Origin: Alphaproteobacteria bacterium
GTDB lineage: Bacteria; Pseudomonadota; Alphaproteobacteria; ATCC43930; CGMCC-115725
Direction of reading: 5' to 3'
Assembly: GCA_028871055.1 (NCBI GenBank)
Contig: JAGWON010000006.1
Location: forward strand, 1-64,000
DNA length: 64,000 bases
Numbering within the stretch: the first letter of the stretch is position 1; each line of letters opens with the position of its first letter. Position numbers and translations under genes: made by a program. The notes under the pieces were generated by a model. It saw only the letters and a program-made list of their open reading frames with translations, searched no databases and was not told the DNA's origin. Below are positions 4,958 through 63,711 of this stretch, piece by piece.

Positions 4958-5130
4958 GTCATTGCGACGCTGCGCGACGCGCAGCGGAAGCAATCCAGAA
5001 TCTCGCCACGGCGCTGGATTGCTTCGCTTAGCTCGCAATGACGTGCGGGTTTCCCACGATGCGGTCGAACCCCACTTTCCCTCGCCCCCGTGAGGGGCAG
5101 AGGGAAGGGTGAGGGGCGTGATTCGATCTA
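4958..5130. repeat. Two dispersed intergenic repeats (families D and C)
   Basis: 4958-5043 is bounded by CGTCATTGCGA and CGCAATGACG, with internal GCAATCCAG/CTGGATTGC arms: a long imperfect palindrome. 5071-5130 is the CCCTCGCCCC...GAGGGAAGGGTGAGGGGCGTGATTCGATC type, also seen near 8641, 8850, 16800, 26600 and 27447. Confidence 0.75.
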
Positions 5131-5337
5131 AGCTGATCATGCTCTAGCGCCCAGGGTGGCGCTCCGCGGATCGCTCGAATTTTATCGATATTGGACGGAT
5201 GCCGGCGGCGCGCGGGCCGGCGACGGTGCGCACGGCCGAAATTTTTCCGACGCAGTTCTGCCTGATTCTTAACCGTTTTGGGCGATGCTCCATCTGTAGA
5301 GACGTTTGAATCGCCGCCGACCGACGCGGGATTTCGC
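5131..5337. other. Intergenic remainder upstream of the histidine kinase
   Basis: This is the rest of the 395-base gap between the ABM gene and the kinase. I see no coding pattern here and no confident promoter. An in-frame TTG at 5278 extends the kinase ORF but has no support. Confidence 0.5.
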
Positions 5338-7428
5338 ATGTCGCCACAGTTGCGCAGGGTTTCGGCTCTCACGGTGCGTATCCGCGCGATCCCGTTCGCG
5401 CGGCGCATCGTCCTGCTCACCGTCTTGTTCCTGGCGGTGGTTTACGTCGGCAACGCGCTCATTGTCGCTCACTATTACACCGCGCTCGACGGGCGGGAGC
5501 GCGAGTCCCGCGACGCCAAGGCGGCGCTGCTGGCCGAGCACGCCGGCCGCGCGCTGGCCGCTGTCGATCTCTCGCTCCAAACCATCGCCGAGACGCTGAA
5601 GGCGCGCCTGCCGTTCGACAAGCCAACGGTCTTCACGCAGCTGCTGCTCGACAAGTACCGCAAGGCGCTGCCGTCGGTGCACAGCATTTTCGTGCTCAAC
5701 GTGGACGGCCGCGACATCAACACCACGGCTTCGTTTCCGCCGCCGCCCGTCAACGGCTCGGATCGGATGTATTTCTCGGAGCAGAAGAAGTGGCTCGGCG
5801 TCGGCCTCTATCTCGATCGCCTCCAGTTTTCGCGCGTGGACCACCGATTGGTCTTCGCCGTGAGCCGGCCGATCCTCGACGACAACGGCAATTTCGACGG
5901 CGTCGTCGCGGCGGTTGTCGATCCCGCATACTTTGCCGATTTTTACGGCCGGGGCGGCGGACAACCGGGCGACGTGGTCCTGCTCGAGCGCGCCGACGGC
6001 ACCATCCTCGCCGGCTCCGGCTTGTCCGACCGGGATCTCGCGGAGAGCCGCCTCAACGCCTTGAGCAACCGCGAGAAGGCGCGCGCGGTTACAGCGGCGG
6101 TCCGCGGCTTTCCGGCCAAGATCGTGCTGATCGGCCAGCCGACGATCGCCTCGTCGCAATTCGTGAGCTTTTGCGCGATGGATGGCGGGCTGCTCCTGGT
6201 CATGACGCTCATCGCCTGGTGGCTGGCGACCGCCGCGTCGCGCGAGGCGGCTTCGGTCGATCGCCAAGCGCGCGCGCGCCGGACCGCCGAGGCGCGGCTC
6301 CTGAGCGCGATCGAAAGCGCGCCGGCGGCATTCGCGCTCTACGACGACGCCGACCGCCTGGTGTTGTCAAACGAGCTTTTTCGCTCGTTCTTCGCGCCGA
6401 TCAAGGACCTGATCGTTCCCGGCACGACCTTCCAGCAGATGAGCGAAGCCGCGGTGACGCGTCGCGCTTATGCCCATGCCCATCCGGACGAGCGCGAGTT
6501 TCTGCGCTGGCGGATGGAGCAGCATCGCGTCGGCGTCGGCGAGCCCGTTCTCCAGCTTTACGACGGCCGCTGGATCCTCATGCGCGAGCGGCGCACCCCG
6601 GAGGGTGGCACCGTCCTGTTCTATTCGGACATCACGCCGCTTAAGCAGCGCGAAGACCAGCTCGGCCTGGCGCGGCAGGAGGCCGAACAGGCGAGCCAGG
6701 CCAAGACCGCGTTCCTCGCCAACATGAGCCACGAGCTGCGAACGCCGCTCAACGCGATCATCGGCTTTTCCGAGATGATCGAGCGCAAGATGCTGGGGCC
6801 GATCTCCGAGAGCTATCGCCAGTACGGCGAGATCGTGCGCACCAGCGGCCAGCACCTGCTGGCGATCATCAACGACATTCTCGACATCGCCAAGCTGAAC
6901 GCGGGCAAGACCGAGCTCCACTTCGAGCCGGTCGACGTCAACCAGATCGTCGCCGAGGCGGTATCGATCATCGCCAAGACCGCGGAGACCGCCGGGGTGC
7001 AGATCGTGACGCGCTGCGACGTGCGCTGCCCGGCGATCGAGGCCGATCCTCTGCGCCTGCGCCAGGTCCTGCTCAACGTGCTCACCAACGCCGTCAAGTT
7101 CACGCCGGCGGGCGGGCATGTCGCGGTCGCGACGTCCGTCGCGGCGAGCGAGCTGCGCGTCGCCGTCGAGGATACCGGCATCGGCATGGCGCCGGAGGAC
7201 ATTCCGCGCGCGCTGGAGCCGTTCACCCAGGTCGTCCGCGACAGCACGCGAGCGCAGGAAGGCACCGGCCTCGGCCTGCCGCTGTCGAAATCCCTCGTCG
7301 AACTGCATGGCGGCCGGTTCGAGATCGCCAGCGCACCCCAGCGCGGCACCACCGTGACGATCAGCCTGCCCATTCGCCGCGCCGGCCGCACGGCGGCCGA
7401 CCGGTCGGACCTGGACATCGCGATTTGA
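5338..7428 (+). CDS. CACHE-PAS hybrid sensor histidine kinase
   Basis: This membrane sensor kinase has 696 residues from the ATG at 5338; the TTG at 5278 would add 20 residues without a family match. Order: TM1 (about 24-46), a periplasmic double-CACHE-like domain (about 47-270), TM2 (about 276-299), a PAS domain (about 320-430), HisKA with the phospho-acceptor His465 in [15 protein letters not shown], and an HATPase domain with [10 protein letters not shown] (N box), DTGIGM (G1) and GTGLGL (G2). No receiver domain is fused and no response regulator gene is near. The next gene, 23 bases away, encodes a periplasmic binding protein, suggesting they sense together. The ligand is unknown. Confidence 0.9.
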
Positions 7429-7451
7429 ACGCCAGCTACGGAGTCACTGCG

Positions 7452-8633
7452 ATGAAATTGAACAAGCTTGCGATTTTTGTCGGCATCCTGGTGCTCGCCG
7501 GCTTGCCGGCGCGCGCCGCCGAGCCGATCCGCATCGGCGTCGATGGCCCCTTCACCGGCGGCTCGGCGCCGATGGGGATCGACATGCTGCGCGGCATCGA
7601 GCTCGCCGCCGGCGAGATCAACAAGGCCGGCGGCGTCCTCGGCCGGCCGCTCGTGCTGGTCGAGCGCGACGACCGCGCCAACAACGACCGCGGCGCGCAG
7701 ATCGCCAAGGAGCTGACCGGGAAGCGCCTGATCGACGCCGCCGTCGGCTACGTCAACACCGGCGTCGCCCTGGCGGCGATCCCCTATTTCGAGGAAGCGC
7801 GCATCCCGGTGGTCCTCAGCGTCACCACCGGAAGCCTGCTGACGCGGCAGTTCGCGCCTCCGGAATACGCCGAGAACTACATTTTCCGCGCCTCGTGCAG
7901 CACGGCGCTCGAGGTCCAGAAGATCGCGGAAATCGTCAAGGCGCGCGGCTATCGGAAGGTTTCGATCCTCGCCGACACCACGGCCTATGGCCAGGTCGGC
8001 CGTCACGATCTGATCCAGGCGCTGGCCGCGCAAGGCATCGCGCCGGTGTCGAACGAGAAATTCAACATCGGCGATACCGACATGACCGCGCAGCTGACGC
8101 GCGCGCGCAAGGCCGGCGTTGATGTCGTCCTGACCTACGGCATTGGTCCGGAATTGGCGGCGATTGCCAATGACCGCGCCAAGCTTGGCTGGATGGTGCC
8201 GATGATCGGCAGCTGGACGCTGTCGATGTCGAATTTCATCGACGCCGCCGGCGCCAACGGCGAGGGCACGGTCATGCCGCAGACCTTCATCGAGCAGGGC
8301 GACACGCCGAAGCGCGCCGCGTTCATCGACGCCTTCCATGCCGCCTACAAGGTCGCGCGGATGGATTCGCCGCCCTCCGCCGCCCAGGGCTATGACTCGC
8401 TCTATCTGCTGGTGGCGGCGATCCGCCAGGCGGGCACCGTCGACGGTCCTAAGGTGCGCGCCGCGCTCGACGATCTTCACGACAAGATCGAAGGTGTGCT
8501 GCAGGTCTACGATCATCCCTTCACGCCGACCGACCACGAGGCCGTCGAAGCGGCGAACGTCGCTTACGGCGTGGTCGAGAACGGCCGGGTGGTCCGCCTG
8601 ACGTCGCCCGCCCAGGCGGCGGCCGCGCGCTAA
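7452..8633 (+). CDS. Periplasmic branched-chain amino acid-type substrate-binding protein (LivK-like)
   Basis: This 393-residue type I periplasmic binding protein has a signal peptide (KLAIFVGILVLAGLPARAAE) and the family start IRIGVDGPFTGGSAPMG. I start at the ATG at 7452; the tracked ORF begins at a TTG at 7425 inside the kinase stop. No permease or ATPase gene of an ABC transporter lies nearby, so it may work as a ligand-presenting partner of the upstream kinase rather than in uptake. The family binds amino acids, amides or aromatic acids, and its ligand cannot be read from sequence. Repeats follow the stop. Confidence 0.9.
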   Translation: MKLNKLAIFVGILVLAGLPARAAEPIRIGVDGPFTGGSAPMGIDMLRGIELAAGEINKAGGVLGRPLVLVERDDRANNDRGAQIAKELTGKRLIDAAVGYVNTGVALAAIPYFEEARIPVVLSVTTGSLLTRQFAPPEYAENYIFRASCSTALEVQKIAEIVKARGYRKVSILADTTAYGQVGRHDLIQALAAQGIAPVSNEKFNIGDTDMTAQLTRARKAGVDVVLTYGIGPELAAIANDRAKLGWMVPMIGSWTLSMSNFIDAAGANGEGTVMPQTFIEQGDTPKRAAFIDAFHAAYKVARMDSPPSAAQGYDSLYLLVAAIRQAGTVDGPKVRAALDDLHDKIEGVLQVYDHPFTPTDHEAVEAANVAYGVVENGRVVRLTSPAQAAAAR

Positions 8634-48348: not shown

Positions 48349-49353
48349 ATGGCTCACAGCGACAAGCCCGTGCTCGTCACCGGCGCATCGGGCTTCGTTG
48401 GCGCGGCCGTCGTCCGCTCACTGCTCGCCGCCGGGCGGAAGGTCCGCGTTCTGCTCCGTCCGTCGAGCGACCGGCACAACGTCGACGGTCTCGCGGTCGA
48501 GCTGCGCTTCGGTTCGCTCACCGAGCCGCGTTCGCTCGCCGTCGCGCTCGAAGGCTGCGGCGCGCTCTACCACGTCGCTGCCGACTACCGGCTGTGGGTG
48601 CGCGATCCCGAATCGATGTACGCCGTCAACGTCGAAGGCACGCGCAGCCTGATGGAGGCGGCGCTCGCCGCCGGCGTCGACCGCGTCGTCTATACCAGCA
48701 GCGTCGCCACGCTCGGCTGGCGCGCCAACGGCGATGTCGCCGACGAGACGACGCCGAGCGCGCTCGCCGACATGGTCGGCCATTACAAGCGGTCCAAGTT
48801 CCTGGCCGAGGCGGCGGTGCGCGATCTCGTGCACACGTGCAACCTGCCGGCGGTGATCGTCAATCCCTCGACGCCGGTCGGGCCGCGCGACGTCAAGCCG
48901 ACGCCGACCGGCCGGGTCATCGTCGAAGCCGCCGCCGGCCGCATGCCGGCTTATGTCGACACCGGGCTCAACATCGTTCACGTTGACGACGTTGCCCGCG
49001 GCCATCTGCTCGCCGAGGACAAGGGCCGTGTCGGCGAGCGCTACATTCTCGGCGGCGAAAACCTGAGCCTGGGCGAAGTCCTGCGGCTGGTTGCCGCCGT
49101 CGTCGGCCGCAAGCCGCCTACCGTTCAAATACCGGCGGCACTGGTCTGGCCGGTGGCGGTGGTCGAGGAGACGCTCGGCTGGCTCACCGGGCGCGAGCCC
49201 TTCGCGACGCGCGAGGGGTTGCGCATGGCGCGGCACAAGATGTTCTTCTCCTCGGCCAAGGCCGAGCGCGAGCTCGGCTACCGCCCGCGGCCTGCGCGCG
49301 AGGGTCTCGCCGATGCCGTCGCTTGGTTCCGCCAGGCGGGGATGTGCCGATGA
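48349..49353 (+). CDS. hpnA: Hopanoid-associated sugar epimerase HpnA
   Basis: A 334-residue NAD-dependent epimerase/dehydratase of the extended SDR type: VTGASGFVGAAVVRSLLAAG, VYTSSVATLGW and YKRSKFLAEAAV (YxxxK). HpnA is a marker of hopanoid clusters and is thought to act on the sugar of the hopanoid side chain; no precise reaction is proven. It begins 21 bases after dxr and overlaps hpnB as ATGA. Confidence 0.92.
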   Translation: MAHSDKPVLVTGASGFVGAAVVRSLLAAGRKVRVLLRPSSDRHNVDGLAVELRFGSLTEPRSLAVALEGCGALYHVAADYRLWVRDPESMYAVNVEGTRSLMEAALAAGVDRVVYTSSVATLGWRANGDVADETTPSALADMVGHYKRSKFLAEAAVRDLVHTCNLPAVIVNPSTPVGPRDVKPTPTGRVIVEAAAGRMPAYVDTGLNIVHVDDVARGHLLAEDKGRVGERYILGGENLSLGEVLRLVAAVVGRKPPTVQIPAALVWPVAVVEETLGWLTGREPFATREGLRMARHKMFFSSAKAERELGYRPRPAREGLADAVAWFRQAGMCR

Positions 49354-50492
49354 GCGCCGCATATTTCTTCGCCCTGCTCGCGCTGCTGATTTGGAGCTAT
49401 CTGCTGCTCGGCCGCGGGTTGTTCTGGCTGCCGCGCCTGTTCAAGCCGTCGCCGGCGCCGAAATCGTGGCCGCGGGTTACCGCCGTCGTTCCGGCGCGCG
49501 ACGAGGCGGCGACGGTCGGCGCGGCGGTGACGTCGCTGTTGAAGCAGGACTATGCCGGCGCGTTCTCGGTGGTGCTGGTCGACGATCACAGCGGCGACGA
49601 CACCGCTCGGATCGCGCGCGACGCGGCGGCGGCGCTGGGCATGGCCGACCGGCTGCGGATCGTCGCGGCGCCGCCGCTGCCCGGGGGCTGGACCGGCAAG
49701 CTGTGGGCGCTCTCCACCGGCGTGCGCGCCGCTGTCGAGGCGGGCGCGCCCGACCTTTATCTCTTCACCGACGCCGACATCGCGCATCATCCGCGCAACT
49801 TGGCCGAGCTCGCCGCGCGGATCGGGACCGGCTACGACCTCGTCTCGCTCATGGTCCGGCTCCATTGCCGCTCGGCGGCGGAGCGCTTCTTGATTCCGGC
49901 CTTCGTCTATTTCTTCGCCATGCTCTATCCCTTCGCCTGGTCGAACGATCCGCGCAAACACATGGCGGCCGCGGCGGGCGGCTGCATGCTGATGCAGCGC
50001 ACCGCGTTCGAGCGCATCGGCGGATTCGAGGCGGTGAAGGGCGAGATGATCGACGATTGCGCGCTGGCGCGTGCGGTGAAGCGCGGCGGGCGCATCTGGC
50101 TCGGCCTGACGCGCGAGACGCGCAGCCTGCGCGCCTATCCGAGCCTCGCCGGCATCTGGAACGTGATCGCGCGCACCGCCTACGCGCAACTCGGTTATTC
50201 GGTGCTGATGCTGCTCGCAACCGTGGCCGCGCTCGGCGTCACCTTCCTGGCGCCGGTGCTCGTGCTACCGGCCGGCGGGCTCGCCGCCATGTTGGGGTTC
50301 GCCGCGTGGGCTGTGATGAGCGTCACCTACGTTCCGATGCTGCGCTTCTACGGCTTGAGCGCATACCGCGCGCTCTTGCTTCCGGCGATCGCGGCGGTTT
50401 ATCTGGCGGCGACGGTGGCTTCCGCCTGGCGGCATTGGCGCGGCCGGGGCGGCGAATGGAAAGGGCGGGTGTCATGGCAGAACCGGCCGTGA
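49350..50492 (+). CDS. hpnB: Hopanoid biosynthesis glycosyltransferase HpnB
   Basis: A 380-residue family 2 glycosyltransferase anchored by an N-terminal helix (FFALLALLIWSYLLLGRG) with two or three C-terminal membrane helices. It carries VTAVVPARDEAATVGAA, the DxD region FTDADIAHHP and EMIDDCALARAVK. HpnB accompanies hopanoid genes; its acceptor is unproven. The ATG at 49350 lies in the hpnA stop. Its last 19 bases overlap the hpnC start. Confidence 0.9.
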   Translation: MSAAYFFALLALLIWSYLLLGRGLFWLPRLFKPSPAPKSWPRVTAVVPARDEAATVGAAVTSLLKQDYAGAFSVVLVDDHSGDDTARIARDAAAALGMADRLRIVAAPPLPGGWTGKLWALSTGVRAAVEAGAPDLYLFTDADIAHHPRNLAELAARIGTGYDLVSLMVRLHCRSAAERFLIPAFVYFFAMLYPFAWSNDPRKHMAAAAGGCMLMQRTAFERIGGFEAVKGEMIDDCALARAVKRGGRIWLGLTRETRSLRAYPSLAGIWNVIARTAYAQLGYSVLMLLATVAALGVTFLAPVLVLPAGGLAAMLGFAAWAVMSVTYVPMLRFYGLSAYRALLLPAIAAVYLAATVASAWRHWRGRGGEWKGRVSWQNRP

Positions 50493-51325
50493 GCGGCGCG
50501 GTCGAGACGCCCTCGGGCAAAGGCCGCCGCGACGAGAACTTTCCGGTCGGCTCGTGGCTGATCCGCCGCGATTTGCGTCCGCACGTCCATGCCTTCTATC
50601 GTTTCGCGCGCGAGGCCGACGATGTCGCCGATAACGGCGACCTTTCGGCCGCGGACAAGATCCGGCGGCTCGAGCGCATGGGTGAGGTACTCGACGGCGC
50701 GCCGGGCGATGATGCGCCGGCGGCCGTGGCAATGCGCGCGAGCCTGCTCGCCACCGGCGTCACCGCACAGCACTGCCACGACGTGCTCACCGCATTCAAG
50801 CAGGACGCGACCAAGCTGCGCTATCGCGACTGGGACGATCTGATGGACTATTGCCGCTATTCCGCCGCGCCGGTCGGCCGCCAGCTGCTCGACCTGCACG
50901 GCGAAAGCCGCGCCACCTGGGGACCAAGCGACGCGCTGTGCGACGCGCTCCAGGTCTTGAACCATCTGCAGGATTGCGCCGAGGACTACGGGCGGCTGAA
51001 CCGCGTCTATCTGCCCGAGCCCTGGCTGATCGAGGCCGGCGCACGCGTCGAGGATCTGCGCCCGGCGTCGTCGAGTCCGGGACTGCGCCGCGTCATCGAC
51101 CGGTTGCTCGATGGCACCGACGCGCTGATCGCGACGGCGCGCGCCCTGCCGGGCGTGGTGAAAAGCCCGGGCCTGAGCCGAGAATGCGCCGCCATCGTTG
51201 CGCTCGCGGCCCGCCTCGCGGCGCGGCTGCGGCGCGGCGATCCCCTGGCGATGCGGGTCAAGCTCAGCCCCGTCGACTTCGTGCTGGCGATGCTGACCGG
51301 CCTGATGCGCGGCGGCCGACCGTGA
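50474..51325 (+). CDS. hpnC: Hydroxysqualene synthase HpnC
   Basis: HpnC converts presqualene diphosphate to hydroxysqualene in the three-enzyme HpnDCE route. The 283-residue prenyl-synthase-fold protein has the two Asp-rich regions ADDVADNGDL and LQDCAEDYGRLNRVYLP, and NFPVGSWLIRRDLRPHVHAFYRFAREADD at the start. I choose the ATG at 50474 (MAEPAVSGAVETPSG); it overlaps hpnB by 19 bases. The stop overlaps hpnD as GTGA. Confidence 0.93.
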   Translation: MAEPAVSGAVETPSGKGRRDENFPVGSWLIRRDLRPHVHAFYRFAREADDVADNGDLSAADKIRRLERMGEVLDGAPGDDAPAAVAMRASLLATGVTAQHCHDVLTAFKQDATKLRYRDWDDLMDYCRYSAAPVGRQLLDLHGESRATWGPSDALCDALQVLNHLQDCAEDYGRLNRVYLPEPWLIEAGARVEDLRPASSSPGLRRVIDRLLDGTDALIATARALPGVVKSPGLSRECAAIVALAARLAARLRRGDPLAMRVKLSPVDFVLAMLTGLMRGGRP

Positions 51326-52179
51326 GCGCGCTGGCGCAACCGGCGAGCGGCGAGCGCGCCGGCATCAAGGCGCAGGTCGCGGCCGCCAAGACCTCGTTCT
51401 ATTGGGCGATGCGCTTCTTGCCGAAGCCGCGGCGCGAGGCGATGTTCGCGATCTACGCCTTCTGCCGCGCGGTCGACGATGTCGCCGACAGCGACGACGC
51501 GCCTGCCGTCAAGCTCGCTTCGCTTGCCGCCTGGCGGCGGACGATCGACGCCTTCTACGCCGGTCAGCCGAGCGATCCGCTGACGCGCGCGCTGGCCGCG
51601 GCGGCGGCGGAATACGGGCTGCGTCGCGCCGATTTCATCGGCGTCATCGAGGGCATGGAAATGGACGCGCGCGCCGACATTCGCGCGCCGTCGCTCGCCG
51701 AGCTCGACCTCTATTGCGACCGCGTCGCTTGCGCCGTCGGCCGGCTGTCGGCGCGCATCTTCGGCGCGCCCGGCGATCAGGCCGATCGCGTCGCCAACGC
51801 GCTCGGTCGTGCGCTGCAGCTCACCAACATTCTGCGCGACCTCGCCGAGGACGCCGCGCGCGGGCGGCTCTATCTGCCGCAGGAGCTCCTCGACCGGCAC
51901 GGCATCGCCGCGCGCGAACCGGCGGCGGTGCTGGCGCATCCGAAGCTGTCGGAAGTCTGTGAAGCCGTCGCCGCGATGGCGCATGCGCGCTTCGCCGAGG
52001 CGCGCGGCGCCATGGCCGAATGTCCGCGCGGCACGATGCGGCCGGCGGCGGTCATGGCGGCGGTCTATACCGACGTCCTGGCACGACTGGAAAGACGCGG
52101 CTGGCGGCGGATCGACGCGCGCGTGAGCGCGCCCGCACCGCTGAAATTGTGGTACGCGCTGCGTTACGGCCTGCTATGA
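51322..52179 (+). CDS. hpnD: Presqualene diphosphate synthase HpnD
   Basis: HpnD condenses two farnesyl diphosphates to presqualene diphosphate. The 285-residue trans-isoprenyl synthase head-to-head family member has FCRAVDDVADS (first Asp-rich motif), GMEMDARADI, and LTNILRDLAEDAARGRLYLP (second). It starts at a GTG that overlaps the hpnC stop and ends overlapping the hpnE ATG. Confidence 0.93.
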   Translation: MSALAQPASGERAGIKAQVAAAKTSFYWAMRFLPKPRREAMFAIYAFCRAVDDVADSDDAPAVKLASLAAWRRTIDAFYAGQPSDPLTRALAAAAAEYGLRRADFIGVIEGMEMDARADIRAPSLAELDLYCDRVACAVGRLSARIFGAPGDQADRVANALGRALQLTNILRDLAEDAARGRLYLPQELLDRHGIAAREPAAVLAHPKLSEVCEAVAAMAHARFAEARGAMAECPRGTMRPAAVMAAVYTDVLARLERRGWRRIDARVSAPAPLKLWYALRYGLL

Positions 52180-53516
52180 GCGGCCGCGTCCACGTCGTCG
52201 GCGCCGGCATGGCGGGACTCGCCGCCGCCGTGCGTCTGGTCGATGCCGGCCGGGCGGTGACGCTGCACGAAGCCGCGCCGCAGGCGGGCGGCCGCGCGCG
52301 CTCCTATGACGACCAGGCGCTCGGCTGTCGCATCGACAACGGCAATCACCTGTTGATCGCCGGCAACCGCGCCGCGCTCGATTTCCTCGATGCCGTCGGC
52401 GCGCGCAGTACGCTCACCGGTCCGGGCGTGCCGGTCTATCCGTTTCTCGACCGCGCCACCGGCGAGCGCTGGGTGCTGCGGCTCAACCTCGGCCGCGTGC
52501 CGTGGTGGATGGCGTCGCCGGCGCGGCGCGTTCCCGGCACCACGCTCGGCGATTACCTGAAGGCGCTCCGACTGCGCCGCGCCCGGCCGAGCGACCGCGT
52601 CACCGATGTCCTCGATCCCGGCACTGTCGTCTTCCGGCGGCTGTGGCAGCCGCTGGCGATCGCTGCCCTCAACACACCGCTGCACGAAGCGTCGGCAACC
52701 TTGCTCGCACGGGTATTGGCCGAAAGCATCGGCGCCGGCGGTGTCGCCTGCACGCCGCTGGTGCCGCGCGAGGGGCTGTCGGAAACACTGGTCGATCCGG
52801 CGCTCGACTATCTCCGGCGGCAGGGCGCGGCGATCCGCTTCGGCGCGCGGCTGCGCAGCATCGACTTTGCCGGCGATGGCATCGCAGCGCTCGATTTCGA
52901 CGGCGGCCGCGAAACGTTCGGCGACGACGATGCTGTCGTGCTCGCGGTCACCGCGCCGGTGGCGATGCGGCTCGTGCCCGATCTGGTCGCGCCCGATCAA
53001 TATTACGCCATCCTCAACGCCCATTACCGCTTCGCCGCGCCGGATGAGTCGCCGTTCTTCGTCGGCATCATCGGCGGTACGGCGGAATGGGTGTTCCGGA
53101 AGCGCACCGTGCTGTCGGTCACGGTCAGCGCCGCGGACCGGCTGCTCGACGCGCCGGAGAACGAGCTCGCCGCCACGCTGTGGCGCGACGTCGCCGCCGC
53201 CTACGAGCTGCCGTCGGCGCCGGTGCCGCCTGTCCGGATCGTGCGCGAGCGCCGCGCCACCTTCGCGGCGACGCCGGAACAGGCCCGGCTTCGGCCCGGC
53301 GCGCGCACACGCTGGCGCAACCTGGCGCTGGCCGGAGATTGGACCGACACCGGCCTGCCGGCGACCATCGAGGGCGCCATCCGGTCGGGCTTCGCCGCGG
53401 CGCACGTTCTCGGCGCCGGCTGCGCCGGCGCGGCGGAAAAGACCTTGAGCGGCGCGGAAACCCGGGCCAAGGTAGCGCCGCTATCGCGTTCCTTGGAACC
53501 GCGCCCCAACCGCTGA
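52176..53516 (+). CDS. hpnE: Hydroxysqualene dehydroxylase HpnE
   Basis: HpnE is an FAD amine-oxidase-like enzyme that reduces hydroxysqualene to squalene. The 446-residue protein begins with the dinucleotide motif VHVVGAGMAGLAAAVRLVDAG...HEAAPQAGGRARS and ends with the FAD loop NLALAGDWTDTGLPATIEGAI. The 30-residue C-terminal tail after AAHVLGAG is not conserved. It overlaps hpnD at the start (ATGA) and shc at the end by one base (TGATG). Confidence 0.92.
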   Translation: MSGRVHVVGAGMAGLAAAVRLVDAGRAVTLHEAAPQAGGRARSYDDQALGCRIDNGNHLLIAGNRAALDFLDAVGARSTLTGPGVPVYPFLDRATGERWVLRLNLGRVPWWMASPARRVPGTTLGDYLKALRLRRARPSDRVTDVLDPGTVVFRRLWQPLAIAALNTPLHEASATLLARVLAESIGAGGVACTPLVPREGLSETLVDPALDYLRRQGAAIRFGARLRSIDFAGDGIAALDFDGGRETFGDDDAVVLAVTAPVAMRLVPDLVAPDQYYAILNAHYRFAAPDESPFFVGIIGGTAEWVFRKRTVLSVTVSAADRLLDAPENELAATLWRDVAAAYELPSAPVPPVRIVRERRATFAATPEQARLRPGARTRWRNLALAGDWTDTGLPATIEGAIRSGFAAAHVLGAGCAGAAEKTLSGAETRAKVAPLSRSLEPRPNR

Positions 53517-55453
53517 TGTCCGACGCCGCCACGACCGAATCCCGCGCGTGCGCCGCTCCAGCCTCCGCCCTCGACCGGGCGGTGGAACGCGCTGCGGCCG
53601 CCCTGATCGCGCACCAGCACGCCGACGGCCACTGGTGCTACGAGCTCGAAGCCGATGCGACGATCCCCGCCGAATACATGCTGTTGCAGCATTACCTCGG
53701 CGAGATCGAGGACGATCTGCAGCGCGACTTCGCCCAATACCTGCGCGCGGTTCAAGGCGAGCACGGCGGCTGGCCGCTGTTTCATGGCGGCGACGTCGAT
53801 CTCTCGGCGAGCGTGAAGGCCTATTTCGCGCTCAAGGCCGCCGGCGATCCGCTGGATGCGCCGCACATGGCGCGCGCGCGCGCCGCGATCCTGGCGAAGG
53901 GCGGCGCGGCGCGCAGCAACGTCTTCACCCGCATCCAGCTCGCGCTGTTCGGTGAATTGCCGTGGACGGCGGTGCCGGTGATGCCGGTCGAGATCATGCT
54001 GCTGCCGCGCTGGTTTCCGTTCCATCTGAGCAAGGTGTCGTACTGGTCGCGCACCGTGATCGTGCCGCTGCTGGTGCTGATGGCGCTGAAGCCGCGCGCC
54101 AAGAATCCGTGCGGCATCAGCGTACGCGAGCTGTTCGCACCCGGCACGCGGGCGCGGCCGCCGCGCGCGTCGGGCTCGATCTGGGCCTGGGTGTTCAATC
54201 GCATCGACGACGTGCTGCGCCGCGCCGAGCCCCATATGCCGACGGGTCCGCGACGGCGCGCGATCGACGCCGCGGTCAGTTTCATCATCGAGCGCCTCAA
54301 CGGCGACGATGGCCTCGGCGGGATTTATCCAGCCATCGCCAATTCGGTGATGATGTTCGAGTGCCTCGGCTATCTCGAGGACGATCCCGCGCCGCGCATC
54401 GCCAAGTCGGCGTTGCGCAAGCTGGTCGTACGCGCGCCCGGCCGCTCCTATTGCCAGCCCTGCCTGTCGCCGGTGTGGGATACCGCGCTGGCGGCGCACG
54501 CGTTGCTCGAAGCGGGCGGCAGCGACAGCGAGGCGTCGGCACGCCGCGGCCTCGAGTGGCTGGTGCCGCGCCAGGTGCTCGATCTGCCGGGCGACTGGGC
54601 GATGTGGCGGCCGAACGTGCGGCCGGGCGGCTGGGCTTTCCAGTATGCCAACGCCCATTATCCCGATCTCGACGACACCGCCGTGGTCGCGATGGCGCTC
54701 GACCGCGCCGATCGGATGAAGTGGCGCGAAGCGGTCGCGCGCGCGAGCGAATGGCTCCTCGGCATGCAGTGCCGCAACGGCGGCTGGGCCGCCTTCGACG
54801 CCGATAACGAATACTATTATCTCAACTACATCCCGTTCGCCGATCACGGCGCGCTGCTCGACCCGCCGACCGAGGACGTCAGCGCGCGCTGCCTGTCCCT
54901 CATGGCGCAGCGCGGCGACAAGGGTGAAGCCTTCGATCGCGGCCTCGACTACCTGCGCCGCACCCAGCTTCCCGACGGCTCCTGGTTCGGCCGCTGGGGC
55001 ACCAATTACATCTACGGCACGTGGTCGGTGCTGTGCGCGCTCAACGTCGCCGGCATCGATCCGGCCGATCCCATGATCCGCCGCGCCGTCGCCTGGCTCG
55101 CCGCCAAGCAGCGCGCCGACGGCGGCTGGGGCGAGGATGGCGCGTCCTATTGGCGCGACCGGCCGCGCGGCGAAGGCAAGGCCAGCATCGCGTCGCAGAC
55201 CGCATGGGCGCTGCTCGGACTGATGGCGGCGGGCGAGGTGGACAATCCCGCCGTCGTGCGCGGTATCGAGTATCTGCTCGCGACGCAGCAGCCGCACGGG
55301 CTGTGGGACGAGATGTGGTACACCGCCGTCGGCTTTCCGCGCGTCTTCTATCTCCGCTACCACGGCTATTGCGCCTATTTCCCGCTCTGGGCGCTGGCGC
55401 GCTACCGCGCGCTGCGCCGTGACGGCGCGCGCCGAACGTCCTACGGCATGTAA
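53516..55453 (+). CDS. shc: Squalene-hopene cyclase
   Basis: Shc cyclises squalene to hopene on the cytoplasmic membrane. The 645-residue protein has the protonating DXDD motif as DLDD (Asp384-Leu-Asp386-Asp387) within YPDLDDTAVVAMALDRAD, and many QW-type repeats (NGGWAAFD, DGSWFGRWG, DGGWGEDGASYW). Length and motif position match known cyclases. The ATG at 53516 overlaps the hpnE stop, and the stop overlaps hpnG (TAATG). It is also called hpnF. Confidence 0.96.
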   Translation: MSDAATTESRACAAPASALDRAVERAAAALIAHQHADGHWCYELEADATIPAEYMLLQHYLGEIEDDLQRDFAQYLRAVQGEHGGWPLFHGGDVDLSASVKAYFALKAAGDPLDAPHMARARAAILAKGGAARSNVFTRIQLALFGELPWTAVPVMPVEIMLLPRWFPFHLSKVSYWSRTVIVPLLVLMALKPRAKNPCGISVRELFAPGTRARPPRASGSIWAWVFNRIDDVLRRAEPHMPTGPRRRAIDAAVSFIIERLNGDDGLGGIYPAIANSVMMFECLGYLEDDPAPRIAKSALRKLVVRAPGRSYCQPCLSPVWDTALAAHALLEAGGSDSEASARRGLEWLVPRQVLDLPGDWAMWRPNVRPGGWAFQYANAHYPDLDDTAVVAMALDRADRMKWREAVARASEWLLGMQCRNGGWAAFDADNEYYYLNYIPFADHGALLDPPTEDVSARCLSLMAQRGDKGEAFDRGLDYLRRTQLPDGSWFGRWGTNYIYGTWSVLCALNVAGIDPADPMIRRAVAWLAAKQRADGGWGEDGASYWRDRPRGEGKASIASQTAWALLGLMAAGEVDNPAVVRGIEYLLATQQPHGLWDEMWYTAVGFPRVFYLRYHGYCAYFPLWALARYRALRRDGARRTSYGM

Positions 55454-56136
55454 TGCGCCTGGTCGCGCTCTGCGGCTTCGCGGCGGAGGTGCGGCTCGCC
55501 CGGCGCTTCGGCATCGAAGCGCATGCGACCGGCGGCGATGCGGCGCGCGGCCGCGCGCTCGCCGCGCAGGCGGCGGAAGCGGCGGACGGATTGCTGAGCT
55601 TCGGCATCGCCGGCGGCCTAGCGCCGCGCCTGCCGCCGGGAACGCTGCTGCTGCCGCGTGCCATCGTGAGTGAAAGCGGCGAGCGTTTTACCGTCGATCC
55701 CGGTCTCCATCGCCGCACCGCCGCCGCGTTGGCCGAAGCGGGCCTGCATGCCGAGACGGGTGACCTGCTCGGCCTCGAGGCCGTGGTCGCGACGCGGCAC
55801 GCCAAGGCGGCGCATCATGCGCGCCACGGTGCGACCGCGGTCGATCTCGAATCGATCCACGTCGCGCGCGCGGCCCACCGCGCCGGCAAGCCGTTCCTGG
55901 TGCTGCGCGCCGTCGCCGATCCGGCGGCGCACGGACTACCGGCGGCGGCGCTGGTCGGGCTCCACCCGTCGGGTCGCGCCGCGCCCGGTCGCGTTCTCGC
56001 CGCGGTGCTGCGCCAGCCCGGCCAGATTCCGCAGCTGATCGACGCCGCGCGCGACACGCGGCGCGCGCTGGCGGCGCTGCGCGCGGCGCTGCCACCGATC
56101 GAGCGGCAAATTCACAATCCGAAATCGCTGGCTTAG
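55453..56136 (+). CDS. hpnG: Adenosylhopane nucleosidase/phosphorylase HpnG
   Basis: HpnG cleaves adenine from adenosylhopane, leading to ribosylhopane and then bacteriohopanetetrol. The 227-residue phosphorylase-superfamily protein has SFGIAGGLAPRLPPGTLLLPRAIVSES and AVDLESIHVARAAHRAGKPFLVLRAVAD. It is last in the operon. hpnH, which makes adenosylhopane, is not in this window although HpnG needs its product, so it must lie elsewhere if the pathway is complete. Confidence 0.9.
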   Translation: MRLVALCGFAAEVRLARRFGIEAHATGGDAARGRALAAQAAEAADGLLSFGIAGGLAPRLPPGTLLLPRAIVSESGERFTVDPGLHRRTAAALAEAGLHAETGDLLGLEAVVATRHAKAAHHARHGATAVDLESIHVARAAHRAGKPFLVLRAVADPAAHGLPAAALVGLHPSGRAAPGRVLAAVLRQPGQIPQLIDAARDTRRALAALRAALPPIERQIHNPKSLA

Positions 56137-56308: not shown

Positions 56309-57136
56309 ATGACGGTGGCGTTCTCTCCGTTGCGGCATGTGACACACGCTGCTTGGCGCTGTGGCGACACGGGTGTGGGCGATCGTGCCATCCCGGAAGA
56401 AACCGCCATTGCCTTCACCTTCAACCGGCTCACCTACGCCGTCATGATGGCGACGCCGGCAGACCTCGAGGATTTCGGGGTCGGATTCAGCCTGTCTGAA
56501 GGCGTGATTTCGGGGCCGGACGAGATCGAGAACATCGAGATTGTTCCCGGCGCCGATGGCATCGAAGTCCGGATGTGGATCACAGAACCGCGCCTCGATG
56601 CTTTCACCGCGCGGCGGCGCTATCTGGTCGGTCCGACGGGCTGCGGCTTGTGCGGGGTTGAAAGCCTCGCGGAGGCAATGCGCGCGCCGCCCAAGATCGT
56701 CTCCGATTTCTGCGTCTCCGCTGATGCGATTGCCGGCGCCATCGCCACGATGTCGGTCGGGCAGCGGCTCAACCGACAGACGCACGCGGTCCACGCGGCG
56801 GCGTATTGGGAGCCCGGGCGAGGCATCGTCGCCCTGCGCGAGGATGTCGGCCGGCACAACGCGCTCGACAAGCTCGCCGGTGCGCTCGCCCGCAGCGGCA
56901 CGAAGGCGAGCGGCGGAGCCGTGTTGCTGACCAGCCGCGTCTCGGTCGAGTTGATTCAGAAGGCCGCGGTGCTGGGCGCGCCCGTTGTCGCGGCGATATC
57001 CGCGCCGACGGCGCTGGCCGTGCGCTTCGCCGAACAGGCCGGCATCACTCTGGCCGCGGTCGCGCGCGACGACGGCTTCGAGATTTTCACGCATCGTCAC
57101 CGCATCGTCGGCGATTCGGCCGAACACGTTGCCTGA
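56309..57136 (+). CDS. fdhD: Formate dehydrogenase sulfurtransferase FdhD
   Basis: FdhD passes sulfur from IscS to the bis-MGD cofactor and is needed for active formate dehydrogenase. The 275-residue protein has the reactive pair in TGCGLCGVESL (CxxC), EDFGVGFSLSEGVI and the C-terminal REDVGRHNALDKLAG...SRVSVELIQKAAVLGAP. The start at 56309 has GGAG upstream. It marks the left side of a selenium/formate locus and is separated from hpnG by about 170 bases of lower-GC sequence. Confidence 0.94.
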   Translation: MTVAFSPLRHVTHAAWRCGDTGVGDRAIPEETAIAFTFNRLTYAVMMATPADLEDFGVGFSLSEGVISGPDEIENIEIVPGADGIEVRMWITEPRLDAFTARRRYLVGPTGCGLCGVESLAEAMRAPPKIVSDFCVSADAIAGAIATMSVGQRLNRQTHAVHAAAYWEPGRGIVALREDVGRHNALDKLAGALARSGTKASGGAVLLTSRVSVELIQKAAVLGAPVVAAISAPTALAVRFAEQAGITLAAVARDDGFEIFTHRHRIVGDSAEHVA

Positions 57137-57307: not shown

Positions 57308-58366
57308 TTACGGGAGCCCGAGAGTGGCGGCCGCGGCAGCGGCGAGCAGCCCGAAGACGAACGTCCCGAAGCCGAGCGAGACGATCGCGCGAAGCGGCAA
57401 TGCCCGGCCTAGCATTGCGAGAGAGGGCAGGCTCACGGCCGGCAGCGTGATGAGCAGCGCCGCGGCCCCGGCACCGCCGAGGCCGAAATGCTGCAGGATC
57501 TGGATAATTGGCACCTCGCCGGCCGTGGGAATGACCAAGAGCGTCCCGGCGGCGGCAAGCGCGGGGCCAAGCCAGAAGGCGTGGCCGATAGCCGGCGTCA
57601 TCTCCGGAAAGAGCCAGGCGCGGAGCACACCAAGGGCGAAGACGAGCACGGCGTATTCCGGAACCAGACGGACGGCAAGGCGGATGAAAGCGCGCACCCA
57701 GGCGAGAAGAAAATGTTCGTTCGTGCCGCTTGGTGGCCGCGGCGCATGCGTAACCCGCCAACCAGGCGGAACGAGGCGTGTCGCCGCGTAGCCGACGACG
57801 AAGACGAGCGCCAAGCCCATAACGAGCCGGAGCGCCGCCCACTGCCAGCCGAGGACGATGCCTATAACGACCAACACGGCGGGATTGAGGGCCGGATTGG
57901 CGAGCCAATAGACGAGGGCGGACGTAGGGCTGGCCCCGCTCTCGAGGAGGCCGACCGTAATCGGAGCGGTGCAGCAAGTGCACATCATCGACGGAACGGC
58001 AAAGGCGGTGGCGCGAAGCGAGGCTGCGGAGCCGGTGAAAAGGCGGCCGAGGATTGCGCGGGGAAGCAATGCCTCGACGCCGGCGCCGAGGGCCAGCCCG
58101 AGCAACAGCGCTTGCCAGATCGCCTTGAGGTAGGCAATCGAGTAGGCAAGACCTGCCTGCCAGCCGACAGTGGGCGGCGCAGCCTTTGTGCCGCTCAAGA
58201 TCGAGGCGCCGAGCGTGTGATGCTGGGCGGCGAAAAAGGCCTTCGCATAATAGGGTGACCACTTGACATAGAAGAGACCCCCGACGGCAAACGCGAAAAA
58301 GAGCGCCATCGGAATCCATGCAGAGAAACGCGATGCTGACGGACGCGCGGCCATGCGAGCAGTCAT
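57308..58366 (-). CDS. PF03773-type (ArsP/YraQ-like) permease
   Basis: A 352-residue protein with eight to ten membrane segments. The conserved Cys-rich membrane motif PSMMCTCCTAPITVGLLESG, followed by WLANPALNPAVLV, and a second half with LVIPTAGEVPIIQIL are typical of the two-repeat permease family PF03773 (DUF318; includes methylarsenite exporter ArsP). It starts at ATG. It lies between fdhD and selD, convergent with fdhD and codirectional with selD, 40 bases past the selD stop. A link to selenium, formate or metal transport is inference. Confidence 0.8.
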   Translation of the reverse strand: MTARMAARPSASRFSAWIPMALFFAFAVGGLFYVKWSPYYAKAFFAAQHHTLGASILSGTKAAPPTVGWQAGLAYSIAYLKAIWQALLLGLALGAGVEALLPRAILGRLFTGSAASLRATAFAVPSMMCTCCTAPITVGLLESGASPTSALVYWLANPALNPAVLVVIGIVLGWQWAALRLVMGLALVFVVGYAATRLVPPGWRVTHAPRPPSGTNEHFLLAWVRAFIRLAVRLVPEYAVLVFALGVLRAWLFPEMTPAIGHAFWLGPALAAAGTLLVIPTAGEVPIIQILQHFGLGGAGAAALLITLPAVSLPSLAMLGRALPLRAIVSLGFGTFVFGLLAAAAAATLGLP

Positions 58367-58406: not shown

Positions 58407-59450
58407 TCAGCAGACGCGGATGCGCGGCGAACCCGTTTCGAACGCTCCGATTTCACACGCGCCGACGAAGCCGCGTCGGCGTGCCAGCTCAAGGACGGCG
58501 GCCACCGCGCTCGGCGCACAGGCAATCAGCAAGCCGCCGCTCGTCTGCGGATCGCAGAGCAAGTTGCGACGCCAGTCGGGCAATTTCGGCGGCAAATCCA
58601 CTTCTACTCCATAGCTCGCCCAGTTGCGTTTCGATGCGCCGGTCGCAATGCCCGATTCGGCGAGCTGGCTCGCCGCGGGAAAGACCGGCAGCGCTTCAAG
58701 CTCGACCCGGGCCGCTAGCGACGCGCCACGGCACATTTCCAAGGCGTGACCGAGCAGGCCGAACCCGGTGACGTCGGTCACCGCATGCACACCGGCAACA
58801 CCCGGAAGCTCCGCGCCGACGGCGTTGAGCTGCGTGGTCGAGGCGATCATCGTCGCATAGGATGCCTCGGCCAGCTCCCCGCGCTTGAGCGCGGCGCTGA
58901 AAATGCCGATGCCGAGCGATTTGGTCAGGATTATGCGATCGCCTGATTGCGCCGTGCTGTTGCGCAGGATGCGCTTCGGGTCGACCAAGCCGATGACGGC
59001 AAGGCCGTAGATCGGCTCGGGCGAATCGATCGAATGACCGCCCGCAACCGGGACGCTGGCGGTCGCGCATACCGCGGCGCCACCGGCGACGATCTGCTGG
59101 ATCATCTCCACCGGCAGCTTGTCGACCGGCATGCCGAGGATGGCAAGCGCCAGAATCGGCGTGCCACCCATGGCATAGACGTCGGCCAAGGCGTTGGTCG
59201 CGGCGATACGACCGAACTCATACGGGTCATCGACGATCGGCATGAAAAAGTCCGTCGTCGCGATGACGGCCTGGCGATCGTTGATGCGATAAACGGCGGC
59301 GTCGTCCGCGGTTTCCGTGCCGACGAGGAGATCGGTGAACCGCGCGCCGCCGGGCATCTTGGCGAGAATCTGACTCAGGACCGCCGGCGCCAGCTTGCAG
59401 CCGCAGCCGCCGCCGTGGGCGAGATCGGTCAGCCGGAGCGCGACGGTCAT
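58407..59450 (-). CDS. selD: Selenophosphate synthase SelD
   Basis: SelD makes selenophosphate from selenide and ATP for selenocysteine tRNA and other selenium uses. The 347-residue protein has the glycine-rich N-terminus with catalytic Cys and Lys ([11 protein letters not shown]), [32 protein letters not shown], and [10 protein letters not shown]. The residue aligned with the catalytic Cys/Sec is Cys here. I use the ATG at 59450 rather than 59495. It diverges from fdnG, whose mRNA needs Sec. Confidence 0.95.
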
Positions 59451-59712
59451 CCGCAACCCCGACGCTGCCGCATACGCTCGACCACGGCGCGGCATCTCTG
59501 CGCGTTGGAAGGCTTCGATCGATGGCGCGCCGGCACGCGGCAGCCGCTCAGAAGCACAACGGTACTATGCGGTGATCGATGCGGACGGTCAAGCCGGGCC
59601 CACTTGATCGCGCGGAGGGGCCCGGTCCTTGACGAGATCGGCAGTCGCGTAGATACTGTTAAAAAAATAAGCATCCTTGTTACCGATGCCGTTAGGGGAA
59701 GGGGACGCCGGG

Positions 59713-62700
59713 ATGCCACACGACGTTTCAAGGCGCGATTTTTTGCGCGGCGGCGCGGCGGCGGGGTTAGGCGCCACGAGCCTCGGCGCCTTCGGCTTCG
59801 CCGCCATCGAAGCGGCACATGCCGCGACAATCCGGCCGTTCAAGCTCGCGCGCATGGTCGAGACCCGCAACACCTGCCCCTATTGCGCGGTGGCCTGCGG
59901 CATCATCATGTACGCGCCGCAGGCTGCGCCGGGCGCCAAGCGCACGCTCATGCACATCGAGGGCGATCCCGACCATCCGACCAACCGGGGCACGCTCTGT
60001 CCGAAGGGCGCCGCCCTGTTGGACTTCGTGCGTGCGCCGACGCGGCTCACCGTGCCGCGCTACCGCGCGCCGGGCGCGAAGGAATTCAAGGAAGTCGCCT
60101 GGGACTGGGCGCTCGATCGCGTGGCGCGCCTGTTCAAGGACGACCGCGACAAGAATCTCGTCACCACCAACGCCAGCGGCGTGACGGTCAATCGCTGGAT
60201 CACCACCGGCTTCCTCGCCGCTTCGGCCAGTACCAACGAGTCGGCATGGGCCACCTACAAGGTGGTGCGCGGGGCGGGCGCGCTGGTCTTCGATAACCAA
60301 GCAAGAGTCTGACACGGCCCCACGGTGGCCAGTCTGGCCCCAACCTTCGGCCGCGGCGCGATGACCAACCTGTGGACGGACATCCGCAGCGCCGATCTCG
60401 TCATCGTCATGGGCGGCAACGCCGCCGAAGCGCATCCCTGCGGCTTCAAATGGGTGACGCGGGCCAAGGCCGAGCGCGGCGCCAAGCTGATCGTGGTCGA
60501 TCCGCGCTTCACCCGCACCGCCGCTGTGGCGGATTACTACGCGCCCATCCGGCCGGGCACCGACATCGCCTTCCTGTCCGGTCTCATCAAATACTGCATC
60601 GACAACGGCAAGGTGCAGTGGGACTACGTGAAGCCGTTCACCAATGCCGCTCTCATCGTCAAGGAAGGGTACGGCTTCAAGGACGGGCTTTTCACCGGCT
60701 ACGATCCGGCGAAGCGGACCTACGACCGGTCGAGCTGGGCCTATGAAATCGGCCCCGACGGCTACGTGAAGGTCGACGAGACGCTCGCCCATCCGCGGTG
60801 CGTCTGGAACCTCCTGAAGGAGCACGTCGCCGCCTTCACGCCGGAGATGGTCGAGCGCATTTGCGGCACGCCCAAGGATAAGTTCCTCCACATCGCGGCG
60901 ATGGTCGGCGAGATGTCTGCGCCGAACAAGACCATGACGTCGATGTACGCGCTCGGCTGGACGCAGCATTCTTACGGATCGCAGAACATCCGCACCATGG
61001 CCATGCTGCAGCTCATCCTCGGCAATGTCGGGTTGCGCGGCGGCGGCGTGAACGCGCTGCGCGGCCATTCGAACATCCAAGGGCTGACCGATATCGGCCT
61101 GATGTCGGAGCTGATTCCGGGCTATCTCAATATGCCGCACGACAACGAGCCCGACCTCGCGACCTACTTGAAGACGCGCACCTTCAAGCCACTGCGGCCG
61201 AACCAAATCAGCTACTGGCAGAACTATCCGAAGTTCATGGTGAGCTTCCTCAAGGCGATGTGGGGCGACGCGGCCACCAAGGAGAACGACTACCACTACG
61301 ATTGGATTCCGAAGCTCGACAAGCCGATGTACGACATGCTGCTAGCTTTCGAGATGATGGCGCATGGCGAGATGAATGGCTACGTCTGCCAGGGCTTCAA
61401 TCCGCTCTTGTCCATCTCCAACCGCGCCAAGGCGACGGCCGGGCTTTCCAAGCTGAAATTCCTCGTTGTGATGGATCCGCTCGACACCGAGACCGCGAAC
61501 TTCTGGGCGAATCACGGTGACTTCAACAACGTCGATCCGACCAAGATTCAGACCGAGGTGATCCAGCTTCCGACCACATGCTTCGCCGAGGACGAGGGCT
61601 CGCTCACCAACTCCGGCCGCTGGCTGCAATGGCACTGGGCGGGTGCCGATCCGCCGGGCCAGGCGAAGGGGGATCGGTGGATCATGGCGCAGATCCACCT
61701 CCGCATGAAGGCGCTCTATCAGAAAGAGGGCGGGAAGCTGCCGGAGCCGATCCTCAATCTCGATTGGCGATACAAGGACCCGGGCAACCCGACGCCCGAC
61801 GAGCTGGCGCGCGAGATGAATGGCTCGGCCCTGGCGGACGTGAAGGATCCGACCGACAAGAAGAAGGTGCTGGTGCCGCAGGGCAAGCAGCTTCCGTCCT
61901 TCGCCTTCTTGCGCGACGACGGCTCGACCGCCTGCGCCTGCTGGATCTACTCGGGCTGCTATCCCGAAGCGGGCAACGCGATGGCGCGGCGCGACAACAC
62001 CGATGTCGGCGATGCCGGGCTGTTCCCGAAATGGGCGTTCTCCTGGCCGGTGAACCGCCGCATCCTCTACAACCGCGCGTCGTGCGACCTCACGGGCAAG
62101 CCCTGGGATCCGACCCGCAAGATCATCGAATGGAACGGCACGATGTGGACCGGCTACGACGTGCCGGACATGCTGCCGACGGCGAAGCCGGAAACGGTGA
62201 TGCCGTTCATTATGGTGCCCGAAGGCGTCGGCCGGCTGTGGGTCGCCGGTCTGATGGCCGACGGACCGTTCCCGTCGCATTACGAGCCCTTCGAATCGCC
62301 GGTCGCTAATGTCGTCGCGCCGGCGGTGCACGGCAATCCGGCGGCGCGCGTGTTCGCGGGCGATCTCAAGGACATGGGCGACGCCAAGCAATACCCGATC
62401 GTCGGCACGTCCTACCGCCTGACCGAGCATTTCCACTTCTGGACCAAGCACAACCGCGTCAACGCGGCACTGCAGCCCGAGTTCTTCGTCGAGCTCTCGG
62501 AACAGCTCGCGAAGGCGAAAGGTATCGCCAACGGTTCGTGGGTCCGCGTGTGGTCGAAGCGGGGCTCGATCAAGGCGGTAGCCTGCGTGACCAAGCGGAT
62601 CAAGCCCATGACCATCGACGGCAAGACCGTGCACATGGTCGGCGTGCCGTTGCATTGGGGCTTCATGGGCGTCGCGCGCAAGGGCTTCGGTCCCAATTCC

Positions 62701-62793
62701 CTAACGCCTGTGGTGGGCGATGCGAACACGAACACGCCGGAATTCAAGGCGTTCCTGCTCGACATCGAGCCCAGCACGCCGCCCTCGGTCTAA
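59713..62793 (+). CDS. fdnG: Selenocysteine-containing formate dehydrogenase, major (alpha) subunit
   Basis: A 1026-residue molybdopterin/tungstopterin enzyme of the Fdh-N/Fdh-O type that oxidises formate in the periplasm. The ORF track shows two ORFs, 59677-60312 and 60325-62793, interrupted by UGA at 60310-60312. They are one gene, with UGA read as selenocysteine at residue 200 in QARV-U-HGPTVASLAPTFG, the position of Sec196 in E. coli FdnG. N-terminus: twin-arginine signal SRRDFLRGG. An N-terminal 4Fe-4S cluster is bound by CPYCAVACGI and LCPKG. The ATG at 59713 is chosen for the Tat signal and the upstream AGGGGA site. fdnH and fdnI follow. Confidence 0.95.
60310..60350 (+). promoter_or_regulatory. 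Bacterial SECIS element with Sec UGA codon
   Basis: Counting the U of UGA as 1, the RNA reads UGACACGGCCCCACGGUGGC then CAGUCUGGCCCC. The apical hairpin GG-U-GGCCA-GUC-UGGCC-CC has bulged U17 and loop G23-U24, the bases known to contact SelB in E. coli fdhF and fdnG. This directs selenocysteine insertion at residue 200. Confidence 0.9.
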
Positions 62794-62808: not shown

Positions 62809-63711
62809 ATGGCATCCCGCGCGATGAACGTGGTCCGGACCTCGGCGACGTCGACGGCGAACGCCCAGGTGACCTTCCACGACGAAGTCGTGAAGCTGAT
62901 CGACGTCTCGAAATGCATCGGCTGCAAGGCGTGTCAGACCGCCTGCCTCGAGTGGAACGATCAGGTGCTGGACATCGGCGAATTCACCGGTTCGTACCAG
63001 GTTCCATCCGATCTCACGCCCAGCATGTTCACGCTGATGCGGTTCAACGAATGGGAGAACCCGAAGACCGGCGAGCTCGAATGGCTCATCCGCAAGGACG
63101 GGTGCATGCATTGCGCCGATCCGGGCTGTCTTGCCGCCTGTCCGGCGCCGGGCGCGATCGTGCAGTACGACAACGGCATCGTCGATTTCGTCGCCGAGAA
63201 CTGTATCGGCTGCGGCTATTGCGTGAAGGGATGCCCGTTCAACATCCCGCGCATCTCGGCGGAACCCGCCAAGGCGCACAAATGCACGCTCTGTTCGGAC
63301 CGCGTGGCGGTCGGCGAAGGTCCCGCCTGCGCCAAGGCCTGCCCGACCGAAGCGATCGTGTTCGGCACCAAGCCGGACATGCTCAAACATGCCGCAGGGC
63401 GGCTGACCGACCTAAAGTCGCGCGGTTTCGACAATGCCGGCCTGTATAACCCGGATGGGGTCAGCGGAACCCACGTCATGTATGTCCTGCCGCACGCCGA
63501 TCAGCCGGAGCTCTATTCCGACCTGCCGCGCGACCCGCGGATCAGCCCGTGGGTCCGGACGTGGAAAGGGGCAACGAAGACCTATACCAGCCTTGCGGCG
63601 ATGGCCGTCTTTGTCGTCGGTGCTTTCGTCCATCACGTCGGTACCGGAGCCAACCGCGTCTCGAGCGAGGATGAAGAGAAGGGACGTAGGGTGATCGAGG
63701 GGAGGGACTAA
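62809..63711 (+). CDS. fdnH: Formate dehydrogenase iron-sulfur (beta) subunit
   Basis: A 300-residue four-cluster ferredoxin-like subunit that carries electrons from FdnG to the membrane cytochrome. Cysteine motifs: CIGCKACQTACLEWN, CMHCADPGCLAACP, CIGCGYCVKGCPFNIPR and CTLCSDRVAVGEGPACAKACP. One C-terminal membrane helix (SLAAMAVFVVGAFVHHVG) anchors it, as in FdnH. It starts 15 bases after fdnG with GGAAGGGGA upstream, and fdnI follows after 5 bases. Confidence 0.95.
   Translation: MASRAMNVVRTSATSTANAQVTFHDEVVKLIDVSKCIGCKACQTACLEWNDQVLDIGEFTGSYQVPSDLTPSMFTLMRFNEWENPKTGELEWLIRKDGCMHCADPGCLAACPAPGAIVQYDNGIVDFVAENCIGCGYCVKGCPFNIPRISAEPAKAHKCTLCSDRVAVGEGPACAKACPTEAIVFGTKPDMLKHAAGRLTDLKSRGFDNAGLYNPDGVSGTHVMYVLPHADQPELYSDLPRDPRISPWVRTWKGATKTYTSLAAMAVFVVGAFVHHVGTGANRVSSEDEEKGRRVIEGRD

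Follow-up and report, generated by a model that had tools for sequence, protein, structure and literature searches.

What does the membrane protein encoded directly beside selD in an alphaproteobacterial selenium island transport? The question arises from a window of 64,000 nucleotides at the start of contig JAGWON010000006.1. A first-pass annotation of this DNA had described an 'ArsP/YraQ-like' permease gene between fdhD and selD and had placed it within a selenium/formate block as the only gene there without a recognised role.

Gene content of the selenium island

Open reading frames and profile searches gave the following features, listed by position in the window:

56309..57136, plus strand: fdhD, formate dehydrogenase accessory sulfurtransferase (TIGR00129, 179 bits; PF02634)
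57308..58366, minus strand: YraQ-type PF03773 permease by sequence, 352 aa, intact open reading frame with ATG start
58407..59495, minus strand: selD, selenide water dikinase (TIGR00476, 429.9 bits, cut-off 125; NF002098, 515.8 bits)
59564..59592, minus strand: promoter-like site upstream of selD-permease (9/12 consensus match only)
59629-59657, plus strand: promoter-like site before fdnG, back to back with the preceding site
59677..62793, plus strand: fdnG, formate dehydrogenase alpha subunit, selenoprotein (TIGR01553, 1170 bits downstream of the TGA)
60307..60365, plus strand: SECIS element (Rfam RF01989 SECIS_3, 83.5 bits, E=2.4e-18)
62809..63711, plus strand: fdnH, formate dehydrogenase iron-sulfur subunit (PF13247, PF09163)

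Open reading frame and profile matches agree on the permease gene, which starts 40 bases downstream of the selD end and is the second gene of a codirectional pair, as first described. Both neighbours named by the first-pass annotation were confirmed, but fdhD lies on the opposite strand and is convergent with the permease gene, so that only selD is codirectional. On the far side of selD lies the selenocysteine formate dehydrogenase gene fdnG; its in-frame TGA is found at 60310-60312, the readthrough translation is VUHGPT, and its true start is probably the ATG at 59713. The two promoter-like sites in the selD-fdnG gap (59564-59657) could couple the two divergent units. Just beyond the window, selA (contig positions 65488-66831) and tRNA-Sec (68838-68933) are encoded on the same contig, so that a complete selenocysteine island is present, the larger part of it within the window. 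Directly before this island, at 49091-56136, lies a block that resembles squalene/hopanoid genes as judged from translations only, with two synthase-like ORFs, an oxidoreductase and a squalene-hopene cyclase-like ORF.

The permease was found in none of three congeners searched. Among 61 genomes, matches were obtained in eight, namely the window's own genome and seven relatives, whose matches were all weak. Such few and weak matches suggest that the gene is patchy and probably mobile between lineages.

Family assignment, motifs and predicted fold

The permease matches PF03773 (ArsP_1) over residues 79-342 with 68.4 bits (cut-off 32.3). Near-full-length similarity was found to YraQ of Escherichia coli (b3151; 43.6% identity over 335 aa, similar length) and to its enterobacterial orthologues, including an annotated Klebsiella yraQ (42.6%). 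This kinship was found through plasmid records, some of which are chromosomes filed as plasmids. Three motifs, MMC[TS]CC[TA]AP, KWxPY and PTA(G/A)E, are common to the permease and its enterobacterial, Caballeronia and Paenibacillus homologues. In the window protein they are placed as follows:

57515..57529, minus strand: PTAGE, residues 280-284, second-half counterpart of CTCC (P280, T281, G283 and E284 invariant in alignment A1)
57971..57982, minus strand: CTCC, three-thiol site, residues 129-132 (invariant in 46/46 aligned relatives)
58250..58264, minus strand: KWxPY, residues 35-39, extra N-terminal helix (K35, W36, P38 and Y39 invariant in 46/46)

ArsP, the methylarsenite efflux permease of Campylobacter jejuni, shares the PF03773 domain and has a membrane helix with C(S/T)C (PMC4435449); the window protein carries this motif as the CTC of MMCTCCTAP (residues 127-135). 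Unlike ArsP, the permease has a third cysteine (CxCC) and the additional KWxPY helix, which lies outside the Pfam domain, and its gene is located beside selD, fdhD and fdnG instead of in an ars operon. C(S/T)C is the form found in ArsP proteins from ars operons, and two distant PF03773 proteins encoded in the relatives' genomes have CSC; CxCC and the N-terminal helix therefore mark the YraQ type. By these sequence features the permease is of the YraQ type of PF03773 and not ArsP proper, which retains one half of the 'ArsP/YraQ-like' label. The nearest NCBIfam models, the SO_0444 Cu/Zn efflux family (NF033936) and SaoE (NF040736), match part of the chain only and score far below their cut-offs (52.3 bits against 300 and 32.3 bits against 325). 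A form of SO_0444 with UxC is listed in a 2026 selenoproteome review (PMC13188914). YedE/FdhT (TIGR04112) is likewise a multi-pass membrane protein that co-occurs with SelD and is suspected of selenium transport (PMC5322559), but the permease comes from a different sequence family and gave no NCBIfam match to it.

The thiols of the membrane motif, highlighted in the first-pass annotation, exist and are conserved; many members have no cysteine besides these three. Invariance of CTCC among 77 collected loci is partly circular because the peptide MMCTCCTA was used for retrieval; it was rechecked on an unbiased draw of actinomycete genomes (see below), in which MMC[TSA]CC and KWxPY were present in 14 of 14 intact members. 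A divergent relative in a selD-positive actinomycete (locus L159, G341:C28) has SLLCVSGTTP in place of MMCTCCTAP and keeps one of the three thiols.

An AlphaFold2 model of the permease is all-helical and of high confidence (pLDDT 89.4, pTM 0.88). Helices of the first half span residues 69-99, 103-109, 115-126, 130-142, 147-159, 162-171 and 174-197, with a break after the third at the start of MMCTCC; those of the second half span 219-252, 258-261, 266-277, 284-293, 298-310, 313-319 and 325-349, again with a break after the third, within PTAGE (278-283). A half-versus-half profile alignment pairs the CTCC and PTAGE regions, although weakly (E=0.065). The model suggests a two-repeat secondary transporter in which thiols are contributed by one half and an acid by the other. 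Sequence searches found no relative with a solved structure, and a fold search gave no match with E below 0.08; its best-ranked entries, anion and bile-acid transporters, were no better than chance.

Co-occurrence with selD

A survey of related permeases against selD had been set beforehand as a test of the selenium link. To this end 77 related loci were retrieved with peptide patterns, in most cases MMCTCCTA, so that they represent a portion of the YraQ family; they derive from Actinomycetota, Bacillota, Chloroflexota, Vulcanimicrobiota, Acidobacteriota and Pseudomonadota. The distribution was not random: SelD scored above its curated cut-off in the genomes of 74 of the 77 relatives (47/49 and 27/28). 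The three selD-negative exceptions are explained or weak. Two are bins, one with selA present (L014) and one of 2.3 Mb (L016), and the third, Winogradskya consettensis (L075, G126), the single clear exception among isolates, lacks both selD and selA and carries the permease gene as a truncated pseudogene (around 6000-6600). The pattern in W. consettensis looks as if the permease gene decays after the loss of selenium use. SelA was detected in 71 of 78 genomes, the window's included, and SenB in 11 of 78. Selenouridine was rejected as an alternative selenium use in the selA-less genomes, as ybbB passed the cut-off in none of the eight tested.

Because the 77 loci had been collected by peptide patterns, a control was run on 395 genomes evenly drawn from one class, the actinomycetes (the class of Actinomadura pelletieri). 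The permease (E<=1e-20) was found in 17 genomes and selD in 111, and all 17 permease genomes were selD-positive against a background of 94/378. Fisher's test gave p=1.7e-10, and 5.9e-10 when the centre genome is left out; these values are not corrected for phylogeny, and the neglect of shared ancestry is their main statistical weakness. Fourteen of the 17 members are intact in CxCC and KWxPY (10 clusters at 65% identity), two are pseudogenes and one is divergent without the motif. The permease gene of locus L080 is degraded. In a selD-positive genome (L160, G200:C15:28486-29224), a TGA stands exactly at the third cysteine of CxCC. A selenocysteine form of the permease was considered for this locus and rejected, as about 90 residues are deleted right after the TGA and the gene reads as a pseudogene.

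The presence of the permease is thus tied to SelD across lineages, in the targeted set as well as in the unbiased draw. No positive selD link is observed for the PF03773 superfamily at large, for which the relation is slightly negative: actinomycetes with another PF03773 protein but none of YraQ type had selD in 31 of 162 cases, compared with 63 of 216 without any PF03773 protein. In Enterococcaceae, the permease was detected in 3 of 106 genomes, all three with selD and selA, while selA is present in only 23 of the 106. Conversely, 94 of the 111 selD-positive actinomycetes were without the permease, which is therefore not required for selenium use. Among the isolate genomes examined, no intact member was found outside selenium users.

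Genomic neighbourhood

SelD is encoded within 6 kb of the permease in 18 of the 77 loci, where simple arithmetic (a span of about 12 kb in a genome of 5 Mb) predicts about 0.2 by chance. In 14 of these 18 the two genes abut and are codirectional, eight in the order permease-selD and six in the order selD-permease, of which the window is a further case. On a tree of 46 members, all of them close relatives, the selD-linkage label requires at least seven changes. Among approximately 205 neighbouring ORFs that were scanned, the SelD domain was the most frequent neighbour in one set and recurred in the other; no ars family occurred in two or more ORFs of either set. Clustering with ars genes, the outcome that the first-pass annotation had named as evidence against a selenium role, was rejected on these scans. 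No selenium genes were found within the flanks read in enterobacteria, Paenibacillus and Caballeronia. Unlike the window gene, enterobacterial yraQ lies between an oxidoreductase gene and dolP, away from selenium genes. No carriage of the permease by phages was found.

The linked loci belong to several kinds of selenium metabolism. Seven bacterial bins (L018, L021 and L023-L027) encode senA, the permease and selD together, with senB on the fetched stretch in six; in L018 the selenoneine cluster spans 3747-8132, and its SenA and SenB pass the curated NCBIfam cut-offs. Other selenoneine arrangements with the permease were found in L030 (Actinopolymorpha, 2341-7020) and L011 (1009-7011). The selD genes of the selenoneine-cluster bins and of L030 contain an in-frame TGA, and selD of L011 is fused to an oxidoreductase. 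On megaplasmids of Ligilactobacillus salivarius (L174, L178, L179), the permease lies beside YeeE/YedE, TusA, rhodanese and D-proline reductase, in an island that also carries selA, selB, selD, YedE, YedF and DUF3343. The presence of selA and selD was already noted when pMP1046A was described (PMC4165912). With this island, selenocysteine use appears as a portable trait of a lactic acid bacterium.

The common factor among the relatives is SelD and not formate. Formate was discarded as the shared element on the strength of relatives with selD but no selA and of the proline-reductase neighbours. Of the selenium/formate association first proposed, the part concerning selenium activation through selD therefore stands, whereas the formate part does not hold in selenoneine-only, orphan-selD and proline-reductase contexts.

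Alternative functions of the permease

Four other functions were weighed. A transporter related to formate or formate dehydrogenase would account for the position of the window gene between fdhD and fdnG, and for five further loci with formate dehydrogenase, but no selD, within 6 kb. This reading is the least probable of the four: the relatives with selD but without selA also lack a selenocysteine formate dehydrogenase, others stand beside proline reductase, and neither Pfam nor NCBIfam models of formate channels matched. Export of arsenic or organoarsenicals by an ArsP proper that happens to lie near selD draws on the shared Pfam family and on the membrane C(S/T)C motif common to ArsP proteins (PMC4435449), yet it is very improbable in view of the neighbour scans, in which SelD recurs and ars families do not, and of the co-occurrence with selD. 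A role in sulfur or thiol-redox chemistry (persulfide, thiosulfate or a low-molecular-weight thiol) in organisms that use selenium by coincidence is improbable to a lesser degree. TusA, rhodanese and YeeE/YedE beside the Ligilactobacillus gene handle both sulfur and selenium, and an envelope-stress (sigma E) table gives a 2.0-fold change for E. coli yraQ (PMC2731931). However, lifestyle alone fails to explain why selD abuts the permease gene in both gene orders or why the two are linked within selenoneine clusters, and other PF03773 proteins of the same genomes have no link to selD.

The fourth alternative concerns direction and is a serious rival because export is the known direction of the superfamily. 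In cells that produce selenide for use by SelD, the permease might act as an overflow valve through which excess hydrogen selenide or methylated selenol leaves. The characterised PF03773 protein ArsP exports trivalent organoarsenicals and does not import them (PMC6205960), which counts against uptake; the two nearest NCBIfam models are named efflux transporters, though both match far below cut-off here; the three-thiol site fits soft, reduced species; and Lin et al. 2015 (PMC5322559) proposed that YedE, another selD-linked membrane protein, exports selenium. Nevertheless, excess selenium threatens SelD-less cells too, and a protein dealing with it would also serve their genomes, yet no intact member was found in isolate genomes outside selenium users. 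Uptake is preferred over export for this reason and because the protein tracks selenium users instead of being scattered; an overflow valve is accordingly considered unlikely, though far less so than a sulfur function.

A candidate selenium transporter

The first-pass interpretation as a whole is supported, and selenium transport by the permease can be regarded as well supported by inference from co-occurrence and gene linkage. That this YraQ-family permease is dedicated to selenium and serves SelD, most likely by the uptake of reduced or thiol-reactive selenium species, is given an even chance of being correct. The substrate would be that of SelD itself or a precursor, such as hydrogen selenide, thiol-bound selenite or a methylated selenol. 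It is placed at or before SelD because only SelD is common to the selenocysteine, selenoneine and orphan-selD contexts; it would thus lie upstream of selenophosphate and be neither selenocysteine, selenoneine nor formate. In the proposed mechanism, the two related halves of the protein would bring together two broken helices, one with Cys-x-Cys-Cys and one with Pro-Thr-Ala-Gly-Glu, and the selenium atom would be bound by the three thiols as the protein opens alternately to either side of the membrane.

A broader proposal, put forward tentatively and with somewhat less confidence, is that bacteria, among them E. coli, use YraQ as a dedicated importer of selenium, with CxCC as a predicted selenium-binding site that passes the element towards SelD. 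A possible further member of the family is MMJJ_00180 of Methanococcus maripaludis, which carries the annotation 'putative permease' and rises by 3.1 log2 when selenium is depleted (PMC11097638). A study of 2024 states that a dedicated selenium transporter is not known, as does a 2026 review (PMC13188914), and the available portions of the open-access literature naming yraQ yielded no selenium role for it. The link of YraQ, a family without an assigned role, to selenium is real and recurrent. If the proposal is true, YraQ would be the first transporter dedicated to selenium. The co-occurrence names a candidate family, supplies a diagnostic motif and points to the E. coli gene yraQ and, as E. 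coli carries this gene, the idea is testable in a laboratory strain.
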